DNA of 52,922 bases, taken from a virus. Both the position numbers and the translations under genes were made by a program. Shown in pieces: positions 24,110-32,525 of this stretch. The stretch's first letter is position 1; each line of letters opens with the position of its first letter. Below the pieces are notes generated by a model. That model worked only from the letters and a program-made list of their open reading frames with translations. It was not told the DNA's origin and searched no databases. The stretch covers positions 1 to 52,922 of IMG/VR virus record IMGVR_UViG_3300047318_000182; one strand, 5' to 3'.

Positions 24110-25444
24110 TTAAATCACCACTGTTAGTTTTTCTGCGGCACGAGTTACGGCGGTGTAACGCCAACGATCAATATCTTCGCGGAATGAACTACCTTCGTCA
24201 TGCACAACTACTTTATTCCATTGTGAGCCCTGTGACGAATGGCAGGTCAGAGCCCACGCCCAATCCACGAGGTGATGTTTTTTCTTGGCTTCATAGCCAT
24301 CTCTCTTATCAGCGCTTACATAGCCTGACTGCCGTGCAAAATGCTCTTCAAAAAGCGCTTGACAGGTTATGATATTCCTTTGGACTTCATCTTCGTCTGT
24401 AGCTTTTAAAGGAAACGTAGCCTTACCATGAATTAATTCATAATCTTGCTCACAAGTTAATAACATTCCGTTGACTAGTGTCTCGGATGTTCTAGAATTC
24501 TTCCTAACAATTAACGGTTCTCCAGCCATGGGACCTATTAGGTCATAACCAGCTGCTGCCCTAATTTTTTTAGTAAGATTCCAACGTTTCACGTGAGTGC
24601 CACAAAGAACTTGCAAGTCTTGATCAACATCATATGTGTCGGTATCGTTTTTCCTGCTAACGATCTTAACTGTGTCCCCCCAATTCCCTAATTTGAAATC
24701 CCCTCCTTCGCGAATATGGGTAGCAAGCGCGATTATGGGGTTGTCCTTGGCTTGACGGTGAATCTCCGAAAGAAATACATCTGGCTCCCCGACACAGAAT
24801 CCAGCAGAATCTTTTACAGGTGGAAGCTGTCCCGGATCACCAATGGCAAGAATAGGTTTTCCAAAAGACTTCAAATCTTCAGCCATTGAAGCCCCGCACA
24901 TTGAAGACTCGTCAATGATAATTAATGAGACTTCTCTAATAGGACTTTCAGTGTTTAGCTGCCATGTAGGCCCATCGGTGCTAATGTAAGCCTTTTCAAG
25001 ATCAGTATTAAGCATTTTTAGAGTTTGCTGCGCTTGTTTAATATCGTAGCGTTTACCTTCAAAAAACACTTCGTTCGTTTTATATTCAGCTGCGGCCCTT
25101 AAAGCGTTACCAAGATCAGCAATTTTATACTGAATAACCTCAGCCTTCAACGCTTTTGGCCGATAAATCATAGAGTGAATAGTTCTAGGGGTAATATTCA
25201 CCCCAGCGCCCTTTAATTTTTTACCAGCGACTCTCGCTGCTTTACCGGTCGGTGCAAGTACGCAAACCTCATCAGCGTCTAGTCCGCAAGCTTCGATAAT
25301 AAAAGGAAGCACGCTGCTCTTACCACTGCCAGCATACCCGGCTAAGTAGCAATATTTAGGTTCCACAACCTGTGATGCCTCCTTGAACCATCTAACTACT
25401 TTTTTAACAGCGTCATTTTGGTGATTTGTAAGAGAGATTGTCAT
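24110..25444 (-). CDS. RecD/Dda-like SF1 DNA helicase
   Basis: A 444-residue superfamily 1 helicase. Walker A is GYAGSGKSS (36-44), motif Ia is VLAPTGKAA, Walker B is IIIDESSM and motif III is AIGDPGQLPPV. The C-terminal part has LTCHSSQGSQWNKV (motif V/VI area) and YTAVTRA. The size matches Dda-type helicases, which move 5' to 3' and help start replication or remodel forks. Its start codon overlaps the end of the Hint-LAGLIDADG gene (ATGA), whose last codons supply its GGAG ribosome binding site. Confidence 0.9.
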   Translation of the reverse strand: MTISLTNHQNDAVKKVVRWFKEASQVVEPKYCYLAGYAGSGKSSVLPFIIEACGLDADEVCVLAPTGKAARVAGKKLKGAGVNITPRTIHSMIYRPKALKAEVIQYKIADLGNALRAAAEYKTNEVFFEGKRYDIKQAQQTLKMLNTDLEKAYISTDGPTWQLNTESPIREVSLIIIDESSMCGASMAEDLKSFGKPILAIGDPGQLPPVKDSAGFCVGEPDVFLSEIHRQAKDNPIIALATHIREGGDFKLGNWGDTVKIVSRKNDTDTYDVDQDLQVLCGTHVKRWNLTKKIRAAAGYDLIGPMAGEPLIVRKNSRTSETLVNGMLLTCEQDYELIHGKATFPLKATDEDEVQRNIITCQALFEEHFARQSGYVSADKRDGYEAKKKHHLVDWAWALTCHSSQGSQWNKVVVHDEGSSFREDIDRWRYTAVTRAAEKLTVVI

Positions 25445-26496
25445 TGTGCATCTCCTGATACCACTATGAAATTATCAGCCAAAAATGAATTATCTCCGCC
25501 ATTAATATTAAAAGAAATTACTTCTTTTTCACCAATGTATGAAGCTGATATTATTGTTTTATTGATTCGAGTGCGTTTCATAGGCCGCCAATTTTTATTT
25601 TTTGTCGAGAGTTTAAAAGGATTGAAATTCAATCGCAAAACTAACGTAAATTCTGTCGCTGGTTTAACTTTATCCCCTCTTTTTGATTCGTATTTGTAGA
25701 CTATGCCTCCCAGTGAATTAACTAACTCAATTACATCCGTAGCTAGTTTTTCGTTGCTTGTGTAAAATCTAGCTGTCCCATCAATCAACTGAGCATGGCC
25801 GTCAGAATCCATCAACCCTTTCAAAAGTTCAATCCTATTTTCTACACTATTATATTTGTAAATATCAGGAAGAAATTTTTTATCTCCCTTAACGTCTAAT
25901 CCTAATTGCTTAATGGCATCTTTCATTTTATTCTGTTTATGTACAGAAGGTTCTATCAGAGACACCCTCCAACAACCGGGATATTGCTTTAAGCTTAATT
26001 CGATATTTTTAGGTAACTTATCTTCTATAAATGATAATATCTCAGTTTCAGAATTACAAAGGGAGAAATAAGGGCTTGATCCCTTTAAATGACCATCCCC
26101 GAGCAAAATACCTAAAATATAAGGGTGGATGTATACGCTTTTCTCAGGATAGATCACAGCGGAATTCATGACGTTTACATGTTTGAAAGCACCTGACGGC
26201 ATTTTAAATTCTCTTTTAATTATATCTTCTAAGCTTAATAACTTAAAAAATTCTTTTCTAATACCTTCAATTGTGGCTGTGTAGATTCTGACTTTAAATT
26301 TTTGTGATAAATCGGTATCTACGTAAGTGCTATCTGAGAACTTTACTCGATAACAAGGCTTAAAGCCTTCGTTAACTATGCTTAAAACATTGTTTATTTG
26401 TCCGCCGCTATTGAATATATGGTCGCCCATTTTAAGGTCACTAGCCCGCTTTGCTCCATGAGGAGTCTGTAAAACTGCATTACTGCTTAATGACAT
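25441..26496 (-). CDS. Free-standing degenerate intein with LAGLIDADG homing endonuclease
   Basis: A 351-residue protein with intein architecture but as its own gene. Hint-like parts lie at about 5-70 (AVLQTPHGAKRASDLKMGDH) and 320-347 (KEVISFNINGGDNSFLADNF). Between them are two LAGLIDADG motifs, LGILLGDGH (128-136) and LLKGLMDSDG (224-233). The splicing residues are missing: the start is MSLSSN instead of Cys or Ser, the block B His of TxxH is replaced (TDLS), and the C-terminal His-Asn is replaced by SGDAQ. It should therefore not splice but may still cut DNA. A 12-bp hairpin precedes it, and its 3' end overlaps the helicase start. Confidence 0.85.
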   Translation of the reverse strand: MSLSSNAVLQTPHGAKRASDLKMGDHIFNSGGQINNVLSIVNEGFKPCYRVKFSDSTYVDTDLSQKFKVRIYTATIEGIRKEFFKLLSLEDIIKREFKMPSGAFKHVNVMNSAVIYPEKSVYIHPYILGILLGDGHLKGSSPYFSLCNSETEILSFIEDKLPKNIELSLKQYPGCWRVSLIEPSVHKQNKMKDAIKQLGLDVKGDKKFLPDIYKYNSVENRIELLKGLMDSDGHAQLIDGTARFYTSNEKLATDVIELVNSLGGIVYKYESKRGDKVKPATEFTLVLRLNFNPFKLSTKNKNWRPMKRTRINKTIISASYIGEKEVISFNINGGDNSFLADNFIVVSGDAQ

Positions 26497-26511
26497 AAAT
26501 TATTTCCAAAT

Positions 26512-26541
26512 ACTCCGAAGCTAAATCAATAGCTTCGGAGT
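26512..26541 (-). promoter_or_regulatory. Hairpin upstream of the LAGLIDADG gene
   Basis: ACTCCGAAGCTA (26512-26523) and TAGCTTCGGAGT (26530-26541) form a perfect 12-bp stem with a 6-base loop, 15 bases before the start codon of the endonuclease gene. No T-run follows on the minus strand, so control of translation or RNA processing is more likely than termination. Confidence 0.65.
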
Positions 26542-26574: not shown

Positions 26575-27378
26575 TTAAAACCTACGACGACGGCGACCGC
26601 CTTCAGCAGGAGCTTCCTCGGCAGGGGTTTCAGCTTCTGCCTCTTCGGCTTCAGGCTCAGGAGCGGGCTTTGCAGCCTTCTTCTTGGCGTCGGCCTTTGG
26701 AGCTTCTTCTTCCTCGTAGTTGTCTGGATTGTCTTCACCACCAAACATTTCTTCAAGCTCAGTTTCACTAATCCAATCAATGATTTTGAATGATGGAGCA
26801 TAGGCCCTATCTTTCTTGGATTTGCTATTTTTAGGGGTAAATTCGACAGAGTCGAATTCCACTACAGGATGCAATTCTTCACCATTGTCATCGAGGTTCT
26901 GACCCTTCTGAATTGCGCGACCGTACTGAGACAGGAGATTACCAAAGGCTCGGAGACCGGACTTTGAGCCGTTCTTGAAAAGAAGCTTTTCGCCGCTTTT
27001 CATTTCACCTACTTCAAAGCTAAACTGCTCAGACCAACCGTCGTCTTCATCGTCAAGCGGGCCGGGGTCTTCCAACTGAGACTTGAGCGGCGGATTGCCC
27101 TCAAGAATCTTAACCATTTCTTCGCCTTCTACCGCCCCACTAATCCAGCAAATCCAGCCTCTAGCGGCTGACTGCATATTGACAGCGCCTTTCCAAGGAC
27201 CGTCAAGCTCATCTTTTTCTTGACCATAAGTATAGTCTCCCGTCTTTCCTGAGAATGAAAGATAGGTGAGACCTTCATTGCCGCCGCCTAGTGCGCCAGC
27301 GGCTTGTAGGAACGGATTACCACCAGCGGCGGGAGTTGCTACAGCGTTATTGGTACGTGTTGTTAGTTCATTTGCCAT
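26575..27378 (-). CDS. Putative single-stranded DNA-binding protein
   Basis: A 267-residue protein. After a low-complexity N-terminus (about 1-35) there is a beta-rich core (YLSFSGKTGDYTYGQ, FEVGEMKSGEKLLFKNGSK) and a C-terminal third that is Glu/Ala/Pro/Lys-rich and ends in five Arg and Phe. An acidic tail with a terminal Phe recalls SSB proteins, which recruit partners through such tails, but the five Arg are not typical. Its place between the Cas4-like nuclease and the helicase supports a replication or recombination role. No OB-fold motif is certain. Confidence 0.5.
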   Translation of the reverse strand: MANELTTRTNNAVATPAAGGNPFLQAAGALGGGNEGLTYLSFSGKTGDYTYGQEKDELDGPWKGAVNMQSAARGWICWISGAVEGEEMVKILEGNPPLKSQLEDPGPLDDEDDGWSEQFSFEVGEMKSGEKLLFKNGSKSGLRAFGNLLSQYGRAIQKGQNLDDNGEELHPVVEFDSVEFTPKNSKSKKDRAYAPSFKIIDWISETELEEMFGGEDNPDNYEEEEAPKADAKKKAAKPAPEPEAEEAEAETPAEEAPAEGGRRRRRF

Positions 27379-29547: not shown

Positions 29548-29823
29548 CTAGTTTTCATTTTCTATGGCCGGATCAATTTCGCCTCTGTCGGCGTGCCATT
29601 TTTCTCTATAGACGCATACCAGCATTTCGTAAGCTCCCCAATCTACAACCACAAAATCATATTTCATGGCCAATTCTCCAAGAAATTCAATCTCAGCAAG
29701 TTTCTTATCTTTTGAATTTTTAGAGACCCAAGTGTCTACGAAGTCTTGGACCGGATCAACGTTTCTAGCCATTTGAATTTTATCCTTTAAAATCAATGCG
29801 TTAATTAGTGCGTCTGGCCCCAA
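29548..29823 (-). CDS. Hypothetical protein overlapping the polymerase end
   Basis: A 91-residue acidic protein whose first 19 bases overlap the 3' end of the polymerase gene. It has a helical N-terminal half (VDPVQDFVDTWVSK) and an aromatic segment (FVVVDWGAYEMLVCVYREKW). A later in-frame ATG (MARNVDPV, residue 18) with less overlap is a possible start. Function unknown. Confidence 0.6.
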   Translation of the reverse strand: MGPDALINALILKDKIQMARNVDPVQDFVDTWVSKNSKDKKLAEIEFLGELAMKYDFVVVDWGAYEMLVCVYREKWHADRGEIDPAIENEN

Positions 29824-32525
29824 TCCAACCCAATTTTATATTCCGCCGCGACGGGGAGTTTGAACCCGAAGAAATCCCCTGCATCAGCCGCAGCTAATTG
29901 AGATGTTTCACCAGCCATTTGAGCCAGAGCTTCCATAACTGAAACCTGAATTTCATCGTGAACAAAAGCCATCATCGCGAAATCTCCGTCCCAGCCATGA
30001 ACATATCCTTCAGCTTCCATGTATTGCTCGAACAGTAGGACCCACTTTTTAGCGATCATAGCACCAGCGTTTTGAAGCAAGGTGTTGAGCGCGGCGTGTT
30101 GCGCCCTGATATAGAGGCGACGACCATCTAGACCAATAATGAAACCACGGCGGGCCTCATTCTTAAGATTCTTCATCAGTTTCTTAAGCGCTGGCATGTT
30201 ACGTAGGAAGCGGTCTAGTAATTCTTTGCCGACGCGAGTCTGTTCCGCTTCAGAAGCAAAAGGTAAAACAATTGAACCAATCTTTTGAGGGCCAGCGCCA
30301 TAAAGCGTGTTACCTGTAATGCCTTGATAGCCAGTAGCGGAACGGCAATAGAATGTATTATTTACAGTCCCGATGCACCAAACAGGAGCTTTTTGTTTCA
30401 AGTCGGTTACAGTGAGAACTCTGGCATAACTAAATTCATCAATTCTAATTTGATCACCGGCAATAAGGTCTTGTGCCTCAATTACTTTACCGTTAATTAG
30501 ATACCAACGATGATTCGGAGTGCAACGAATATTGCCACTATCTGTATTTACGGTCCAAATATCAGCTTCGCCATAACTCACTTTTTCAGTGATAGGACAA
30601 TACTCCATTACTCTATCGATAGAGTTCCACGACCAAACCGCTTCGCCATCAACCAATTTGTCAAAAGATTTCCAACCGCTTGCGGTAAGTACAATTGTGT
30701 CAAAAGTAAGGCAGGCGTAGATGAAGGTCTTGGCCTGATCACGACTTTCAAGCCCCGCCGCGTTCATATTAACGGTGTGAATATCACCTTCAAGCAGTTC
30801 TTTCGCATATTCGCCATTATCAAACTCTGCCATGTAGTGAGCCAAACAACGAAGCTCAATACCGCTCAAGTCACTACCCATCATAACGAATGGAGATGTG
30901 GTGTAGAACAGAGAACGGCACTCAAAACCCCAGCCGCCGTCTCGACCCATCTTAATATTTTTTTCTTTATCCTTTGAAATAGCCGGAACCTGACCAAGGT
31001 TAGGTTTGGCATGGGTACAACGACCTGTCACAGCGCCGCAAGGATTTACATAGTGATGGATTTTATTTTCAGGAGTTACAAGCTTTAGCCAACCATTATC
31101 ACCATCGGCTAACTGACCAAGGGTCTTGTTAACGCCGAAGTAATCTGCTAGAGTTGCGGCGATTGGAAAACGTTCCGCTGCGTTCTTGAGAATAATATCG
31201 TCAATTTTGATATTACCCTTTTCCGTGAAATCAGTAGGTTCCCAACCTTGTTCCATCAACCGTGTAGCGACTTGCTGGCGCGAACCGGGATTAAATTCTT
31301 TGAAATAAACCGGTGTGAAAGGGCATCCAGCGGTTCTATCACCACGAGCCGGGTCTTTGTATCTCAAGGTCTTTTTAGGGATAGTCATTGTGGGGACTGG
31401 TTTGTCTTGATCATGACCTGATAACAGATCGTAAACCATATCCTCTAACTCAGGATTATCAATCTTGTCCCAATCAACAGCGTTAAATTCTTCACGAAGC
31501 TTACCGTATGTCGTCTTCGAAGAAGCCTCTAACCGAGACGGAAAGTTCTTTTCACACTCTGTTACGATAATATCTTTAGAGCCACGTAGGTCAGCTTCTA
31601 GGGCTTGCGCCGCCTCAGTGTTGAACGGGAAGCCGTTAGCTTCTTGCCTTACGCAGTAGTCCGCAAACTCATGCTCGAACACGATAGGAAATTCTGGATA
31701 ATCTTGTTCCAGAAGCATTTTCCACAATTCATCCGTGACTTCAACGTCGTTTTCACAATATTCGCCAAGCTCAGGAGTATAATGTCCCCAAACGTAGTCT
31801 AGCAATTCATCTTCATCAGTTATGCCAAGGGCTTTTGCTTCGGCCCGCTTAATTTTAGAATAATCACCTTTGTACTTACCGATACGATAACCCCAGCTAT
31901 CGAGGCTATGTTTTCCAATAAATTCAGATGGGAGCATACCTTTTTCATAGAGGCGGAAGTCAAGTTCTTTCTGATGCGAGAACATAACACGTGTCATCAC
32001 AAGACTGTCCCGAATCTTCCCATTGATTTCAAAATCTGGATAGAGTTTGAAAAGCGCAGGAATATCAAACCCTAAGCCGTTATGAGCCACTACCATTTCA
32101 GCATCACGAAGAAGCTCAAGCCCTTCTTCGATCTCATGTTCTAAAAACTTAAATTTCTTACCTGTTTCAAATTCTTTGATGCAAAGAACATGAACCTTAG
32201 TGATTCTGTCAAGCAAGCCGTCAGATTCTATGTCAAAAATAGCTGTACGGAGTTTTTTTCTATTTATGGCCAAAGGCAGATTCGCTTTTCTTATTATTGA
32301 GTCACAGTGGCAACGCTTTGGCTTGCAGAAACAAACCAAATCTTTTCCTCGTAACTTTGAAACATCTAAATCAGGGAGGATAAGTTGCTCGAACTTATCA
32401 CAAACTTCATCTCTATCGCCGTCACGTCCGATGACGAAAGGGTTCCCGTATCGAGAACCACGGCCACAATACACAGCGGAGACCGGCGCTGTGCCGTGAT
32501 ATTTATTATGTACGGAAGGTAACAT
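29805..32525 (-). CDS. Family A DNA polymerase with N-terminal DUF4326 domain and a mini-intein
   Basis: A 906-residue precursor. Residues about 15-80 are a DUF4326-type domain (GSRYGNPF, then LVCFCKPKRCHCDSI). A 3'-5' exonuclease follows (FDIESDGL at about 97, VVAHNGLGFDIP). Polymerase motif A is GSDLSGIELR, motif C is FVHDEIQVSV. Motif B (RDQAKTFIYA...TLYGAG) is split by a 135-residue intein at residues 605-739; after splicing the enzyme has about 771 residues. This is the replicative polymerase. A promoter overlaps its start codon region and no clear ribosome binding site precedes the ATG, so translation might start at the GTG of residue 18. Confidence 0.92.
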   Translation of the reverse strand: MLPSVHNKYHGTAPVSAVYCGRGSRYGNPFVIGRDGDRDEVCDKFEQLILPDLDVSKLRGKDLVCFCKPKRCHCDSIIRKANLPLAINRKKLRTAIFDIESDGLLDRITKVHVLCIKEFETGKKFKFLEHEIEEGLELLRDAEMVVAHNGLGFDIPALFKLYPDFEINGKIRDSLVMTRVMFSHQKELDFRLYEKGMLPSEFIGKHSLDSWGYRIGKYKGDYSKIKRAEAKALGITDEDELLDYVWGHYTPELGEYCENDVEVTDELWKMLLEQDYPEFPIVFEHEFADYCVRQEANGFPFNTEAAQALEADLRGSKDIIVTECEKNFPSRLEASSKTTYGKLREEFNAVDWDKIDNPELEDMVYDLLSGHDQDKPVPTMTIPKKTLRYKDPARGDRTAGCPFTPVYFKEFNPGSRQQVATRLMEQGWEPTDFTEKGNIKIDDIILKNAAERFPIAATLADYFGVNKTLGQLADGDNGWLKLVTPENKIHHYVNPCGAVTGRCTHAKPNLGQVPAISKDKEKNIKMGRDGGWGFECRSLFYTTSPFVMMGSDLSGIELRCLAHYMAEFDNGEYAKELLEGDIHTVNMNAAGLESRDQAKTFIYACLTFDTIVLTASGWKSFDKLVDGEAVWSWNSIDRVMEYCPITEKVSYGEADIWTVNTDSGNIRCTPNHRWYLINGKVIEAQDLIAGDQIRIDEFSYARVLTVTDLKQKAPVWCIGTVNNTFYCRSATGYQGITGNTLYGAGPQKIGSIVLPFASEAEQTRVGKELLDRFLRNMPALKKLMKNLKNEARRGFIIGLDGRRLYIRAQHAALNTLLQNAGAMIAKKWVLLFEQYMEAEGYVHGWDGDFAMMAFVHDEIQVSVMEALAQMAGETSQLAAADAGDFFGFKLPVAAEYKIGLDWGQTH
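30309..30713 (-). mobile_element. Mini-intein in DNA polymerase motif B
   Basis: The in-frame insert begins with Cys (CLTFDTIVLTASGW, block A) and has NIRCTPNHRWYL (block B TxxH as TPNH), and VWCIGTVNNTFYC (block F). It ends GITGN followed by Thr. It is 135 residues with no endonuclease domain. The flanking FIYA and TLYGAG join into an intact O-helix motif. The residue before the terminal Asn is Gly rather than His, which is seen in some active inteins, so splicing is likely but not proven. Confidence 0.92.

Follow-up and report, generated by a model that had tools for sequence, protein, structure and literature searches.

The need to splice is held to confine inteins to conserved genes, and for yeast HO a step has been postulated in which an intein becomes an independent homing gene. 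A phage record of 52,922 bases (the window, meaning the whole stretch of DNA analyzed here) raises the question of whether this step can be observed in a phage: on its minus strand, between a conserved phage gene and a helicase gene, lies a gene that resembles an intein outside any host protein.

A free-standing gene at an intergenic site

The gene, designated P0001 (25441–26496, minus strand), encodes 351 amino acids, with an ATG start that has in-frame stops just upstream and a TGA stop of its own. Read from its sequence, the open reading frame (ORF) consists of a Met, a complete LAGLIDADG intein and a three-residue tail, and Ser2 aligns with intein residue 1, which is usually Ala. The original prediction had given the interval as 25441–26541; the ORF covers 25441–26496 of this, while the remainder is leader and a 12-bp hairpin. 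P0001 was found in one genome only, has a GC content of 34% compared to 42% for the window and 43–50% for the neighboring genes, and matches Pfam LAGLIDADG_3 above the cut-off and Hom_end below it.

Both neighbors, encoded on the same strand, are complete. The upstream gene (26575–27378) aligns end to end with its relatives, as does the downstream gene (24110–25444), which encodes a RecD/Dda-like helicase of 444 amino acids (PHROG Dda-like, AAA_30). With stops on either side, P0001 is, as originally predicted, not inside a host protein and lacks the in-frame insertion of a functional intein; a fusion with the upstream or downstream protein is ruled out by the in-frame stops and the complete neighbors. 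The description of the gene as lying between two replication genes holds for the helicase, but the upstream gene, earlier called an SSB, is not established as one. Its product matches PHROG 9528, named nucleotidyltransferase, and carries a conserved Arg-rich tail that is often Phe-terminated. The best match of its structural model is the phiC31 recombination directionality factor (Foldseek E = 2.7e-3, a weak match), and the model also matches regions of MCM proteins.

P0001 lies between two elements of the intergenic region. On its upstream side, folding of the 78-nt gap (−21.5 kcal/mol, z = −5.7) revealed the 12-bp hairpin behind the upstream gene (26512–26541, minus strand). On its downstream side, comparison with the leaders of relatives showed that its last codons, S-G-D-A-Q-stop (TCAGGAGATGCACAATGA; 25441–25458, minus strand), stand in place of the His-Asn end of an intein. 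These codons (TCA GGA GAT GCA CAA) contain the helicase ribosome site AGGAG (25452–25456), and the P0001 stop overlaps the helicase start codon (ATGA), in agreement with the earlier reading that they supply the ribosome binding site of the helicase. Because P0001 is joined between the hairpin and the AGGAG leader, loss of the His-Asn end may be a direct result of the joining.

Relatives that share this gene order (for example, Microcystis phage Mwe-JY26) have an empty site. The gap there measures 63–126 bp (L100, L104, L106–L110, L124–L129, L132, L160 and L006) and contains a hairpin at the same place followed by the leader, with a purine-rich ribosome site in most cases. P0001 thus bears one mark of a free-standing homing gene, an ORF of its own at an intergenic position that relatives leave unoccupied. 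The 78-bp gap showed no similarity to the helicase above that of shuffled sequences, and there is no duplicated helicase fragment beside P0001. In one relative (L102, 2716–3933), the corresponding gap between these two neighbors holds a gene for a 405-amino acid protein with a beta-helix-like sequence, indicating that extra genes have been taken up there more than once.

Relatives of P0001 are in-frame inteins

Using tblastn, P0001 matched more than 700 phage records at less than 60% identity, annotated mostly as helicases and terminases. The best match was an intein in a Vibrio phage helicase (34.5% identity over 96% of the length), and the E-value against a phage intein was 9e-50. Scans of viral and cellular contigs yielded ~195 distinct relatives, all of which proved on inspection to be in-frame inteins; these came from alignment queries, as single-sequence scans of viral contigs with P0001 or the helicase were empty. 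No free-standing relative was present among the 195 distinct loci classified, and in the doubtful phage records that we inspected the match always fell within a larger ORF. No DNA-level relatives of the region were found among deposited phages.

One candidate for a free-standing relative, in Serratia phage 2050HW (L342, 1587–4149), was rejected. Its helicase is annotated as two ORFs and the break falls within a Walker A intein, with no free gene present; the break may stem from a frameshift or from faulty sequencing, or the intein may be split.

The relatives are inserted mostly directly after the GK of ATPase Walker A loops (GK↓T; the arrow marks the insertion point) and share a pattern of Ala or Gly at position 1, a block B Trp, a block F Cys and a terminal Thr-His-Asn followed by a +1 Thr. 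Judged by this pattern, they are mostly of the class 3 type (as defined in PMC3196547). For P0001 itself, it is overall homology that points to class 3 ancestry, since all three residues of the diagnostic WCT triad have been lost: Trp B12 (79 of 88 relatives) is Phe, Cys F4 (88/88) is Ser and Thr G5 (84/88) is Val.

The trees, one of which was a quick version, do not place P0001: it sits on a long branch with support below 70 and is not grouped with inteins of RecD helicases, so that a placement beside them is unsupported. Inteins in helicases detectably related to that of the window occupy similarity ranks 1, 2, 4 and 10 of 195 (p = 4e-4), although decay of P0001 itself can distort such ranks. 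As the trees fail to place it, descent of P0001 from an intein of this very helicase gene is only plausible from the sequence comparisons.

The splicing domain has decayed and the endonuclease is conserved

The intein borders and two LAGLIDADG motifs described earlier were borne out by a full-length intein alignment and by an AlphaFold model that is confident along the entire chain (pLDDT 94, pTM 0.92) and matches PI-SceI over its full length. Full-length homology and the PI-SceI-like fold place P0001 in the Hint/LAGLIDADG intein superfamily. On the minus strand, the N-terminal part of the Hint (splicing) domain (residues 2–120, 26137–26493) is followed by the endonuclease domain (residues 121–300, 25597–26136), recognized by its conserved positions and PI-SceI-like fold, and by the C-terminal Hint part (residues 305–346, 25459–25584). 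As expected of a LAGLIDADG homing endonuclease, there are two motifs with a catalytic Asp, YILGILLGDGHL (26086–26121, minus strand) with Asp134 and LKGLMDSDG (25798–25824, minus strand) with Asp232, equivalent to PI-SceI Asp218 and Asp326. Block D (KKFLP, 25867–25881, minus strand) contains Lys207, the counterpart of PI-SceI Lys301 in an alignment whose residues were mapped by hand; Lys403 of PI-SceI had no clear equivalent in the P0001 alignment.

Compared to 88 relatives, P0001 has lost the splicing residues of a functional intein. The block B His, present in 88/88, is Gln (His65), and the adjacent triad residue has changed from Trp67 to Phe. The other two triad changes affect Cys328 in block F and Thr346 in block G, the latter being the first residue of the Thr-His-Asn end, whose His and Asn are found in 85 and 88 of 88 relatives, respectively, and which reads Val-Ser-Gly in P0001. 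The +1 residue is Thr, Ser or Cys in all 88 but Asp here. These comparisons confirm the predicted loss of the block B His and terminal His-Asn but not that of a first nucleophile at residue 1, where relatives mostly begin with Ala or Gly; because most of the parent family is class 3, with no nucleophile at that residue, the nucleophile that was lost is the block F Cys. In contrast, both LAGLIDADG Asp residues (86/88 and 88/88 relatives) are retained.

This difference extends across the two domains. Of the positions that 90% or more of a set of 190 relatives conserve, P0001 retains 23 of 25 in the endonuclease compared to 7 of 15 in the splicing domain (Fisher p = 0.002). Mean identity to the family is 0.224 for the Hint part, the lowest of 89 sequences (0.350 ± 0.030 for the family), and it stays lowest with the six splice positions excluded, whereas for the endonuclease part it is near the normal range (0.349 versus 0.372 ± 0.019). 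Four of the 190 inteins have a lower Hint-to-endonuclease ratio, so the ratio by itself is not unique to P0001. The contrast between domains nonetheless argues for a gene under selection and, at the level of sequence, for a constrained endonuclease as opposed to plain decay.

These data bear directly on whether P0001 is a recently stranded relic, that is, a dead intein left behind by a recombination accident and heading for loss. The nearest prokaryotic precedent, Arth_1007 of Arthrobacter sp. FB24, is such a case: a class 3 intein pseudogene outside a helicase gene that did not splice when tested and was judged to be decaying (PMC3196547). Like P0001, it has lost the His of block B and the Cys of block F, and the occurrence of P0001 in a single genome and the putative status of its endonuclease activity would also suit a relic. 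However, Arth_1007 retains its C-terminal Asn and 66 amino acids of extein remnants, while P0001 has no exteins, has lost the His-Asn as well, adjoins the helicase and has a constrained endonuclease. Neutral decay should strike both domains alike, yet the Hint domain is far diverged in an ORF that remains open, with the endonuclease positions conserved and the complete model of high confidence. In simulations with random substitutions at 0.1 per site, the P0001 frame was still open in 1 of 1,000 trials. We therefore regard a relic as unlikely.

Retention of the nuclease also weighs against a second alternative, in which P0001 has been domesticated, either to control the helicase operon as a regulator or DNA binder, or to act solely as a nuclease that excludes other phages and does not home. 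The translational overlap between P0001 and the helicase would suit the former, and the Seg enzymes of T4, which exclude markers of rival phages (PMC10448857, PMC2988022), are a model for the latter. A mere DNA binder would have no need of both catalytic Asp residues, however, and exclusion can coexist with homing, leaving this explanation improbable to a still greater degree.

The best explanation is that a class 3-type LAGLIDADG intein escaped from its host protein and now stands ahead of the helicase as a separate homing endonuclease gene, which we consider probable on the basis of sequence. It agrees with the original prediction of an intein turned into an intergenic, splicing-dead endonuclease gene: among ~195 relatives that are in-frame inteins, P0001 alone is free, and only its splicing domain has decayed. 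With splicing no longer needed, the residues for it would have been lost, along with some of the Hint core.

An embedded relative and a candidate target in the helicase Walker A

A related intein inside a helicase gene, which the original prediction had proposed to search for, was found in L130 (IMGVR_UViG_3300035034_002548), the one locus with a P0001 relative among 80 helicase loci and three phages. It was located via a search for the helicase and not via the endonuclease. The L130 helicase is orthologous to that of the window (47% identical, same gene order) and carries a 340-amino acid intein in its Walker A (GGYAGTGK↓TTVLP) that shares 33% identity with P0001 over 346 residues (189 bits). 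In contrast to P0001, this intein of the same family and gene neighborhood is in frame inside the helicase, has every splicing residue and looks intact. Helicases close to that of L130 (L102, L105 and L007) are intein-free.

The position of the L130 intein points to a candidate target in the window, the helicase Walker A sequence GYAGSGK↓S (25316–25339, minus strand; junction 25318/25319), ~120 bp from the end of the P0001 gene. Here the carrier reads GSGKSS (AAG↓AGCAGC), the sole Walker A of its kind among 81 helicases. GSGK↓SS would fit a resistant allele, as a single case.

A possible working can be proposed from these observations. An intein would have left its host protein to become its own gene just before the RecD/Dda-like helicase gene, with its C-terminal His-Asn replaced by sequence bearing the helicase ribosome site. 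On co-infection with a related phage that lacks the gene, the P0001 enzyme would cut the DNA of that phage, probably at the kind of target used ancestrally, the helicase Walker A coding sequence. P0001 and its flanks would then be copied during repair templated by the carrier genome, amounting to intronless homing by co-conversion, and the carrier's own Walker A would need to resist cutting. By analogy, the Walker A DNA of the neighboring helicase in rival phages is perhaps the target of P0001.

The enzyme could instead be an active free-standing homing endonuclease with a different target, either the intergenic site or another gene, be it the neighbor upstream or a Walker A gene farther away. 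The catalytic Asp residues and conserved positions would be constrained in this case too, P0001 occupies a defined intergenic location flanked by the hairpin and the ribosome site, LAGLIDADG specificity is able to drift and T4 SegG, located between genes 32 and 59, cuts the upstream gene 32 (PMC2988022). Given that the family is inserted mostly at Walker A sites and that an orthologous helicase is known to host such an intein, we consider a different target rather doubtful.

A further potential target is the phage polA gene (29805–32525, minus strand), 3.8 kb away. It contains a 135-amino acid mini-intein without an endonuclease (30309–30713, minus strand; QAKTFIYA↓CLTF...GITGN↓TLYG), in which the penultimate residue is Gly and not His. 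The N-terminus of its product has a DUF4326 domain (PF14216, E = 1.9e-18) before the exonuclease domain. P0001 might act as a helper that cuts intein-free polA and spreads both elements (collaborative homing), and free-standing helpers of introns are on record (PMC10448857). However, the two Hint domains have no detectable similarity, which rules out kinship between the mini-intein and P0001, and the polA intein has a Cys1 and a site other than Walker A, so a shared target is not to be expected. Of the explanations considered, we give this one scarcely any credence.

Comparison with known systems

The likeness to yeast HO put forward in the original prediction holds in outline: P0001, like HO and WHO (PMC7282813), is an intein-derived stand-alone LAGLIDADG nuclease of the PI-SceI kind without splicing. 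Domestication, however, is not indicated, making WHO the better comparison. WHO elements are intein-derived and non-splicing and cut the neighboring gene FBA1, of which carriers hold resistant alleles (PMC7282813). That P0001 is a phage counterpart, having abandoned splicing and moved ~120 bp upstream of its Walker A target to cut rivals while GSGK↓SS protects the carrier, we put forward tentatively, as a reading somewhat less likely than not. Unlike HO and WHO, P0001 lacks a C-terminal zinc finger and ends at the Hint domain, is phage-borne, lies 5' of a helicase and stems from a class 3-type parent, with a target that we infer; unlike WHO, it has no duplicated target-gene fragment beside it. 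PI-SceI (VDE) shares its Hint and LAGLIDADG architecture and the equivalents of Asp218, Asp326 and Lys301, but splices and resides in VMA1, neither of which P0001 appears from its sequence to do.

Free-standing endonucleases of T4 cut a neighboring gene and are inherited via repair extending into their own gene (PMC2988022). P0001 resembles SegF, SegG and MobE (PMC2988022) as a stand-alone intergenic gene, although its neighboring cut site is a presumed one. These T4 genes lie between replication genes and encode GIY-YIG or HNH enzymes that, unlike P0001, are not intein-derived. Our coverage of the literature, which was incomplete, found no phage case of a free-standing intein-derived endonuclease.

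As read here, P0001 has made the transition from intein to independent homing gene: it is no longer part of a host protein, selection has retained it as a nuclease, and it is in outline a rare phage parallel to the origin of the yeast HO endonuclease. Embedded, empty and free forms all exist at one gene, so that a single protein and a handful of DNA substrates would suffice to test the transition.
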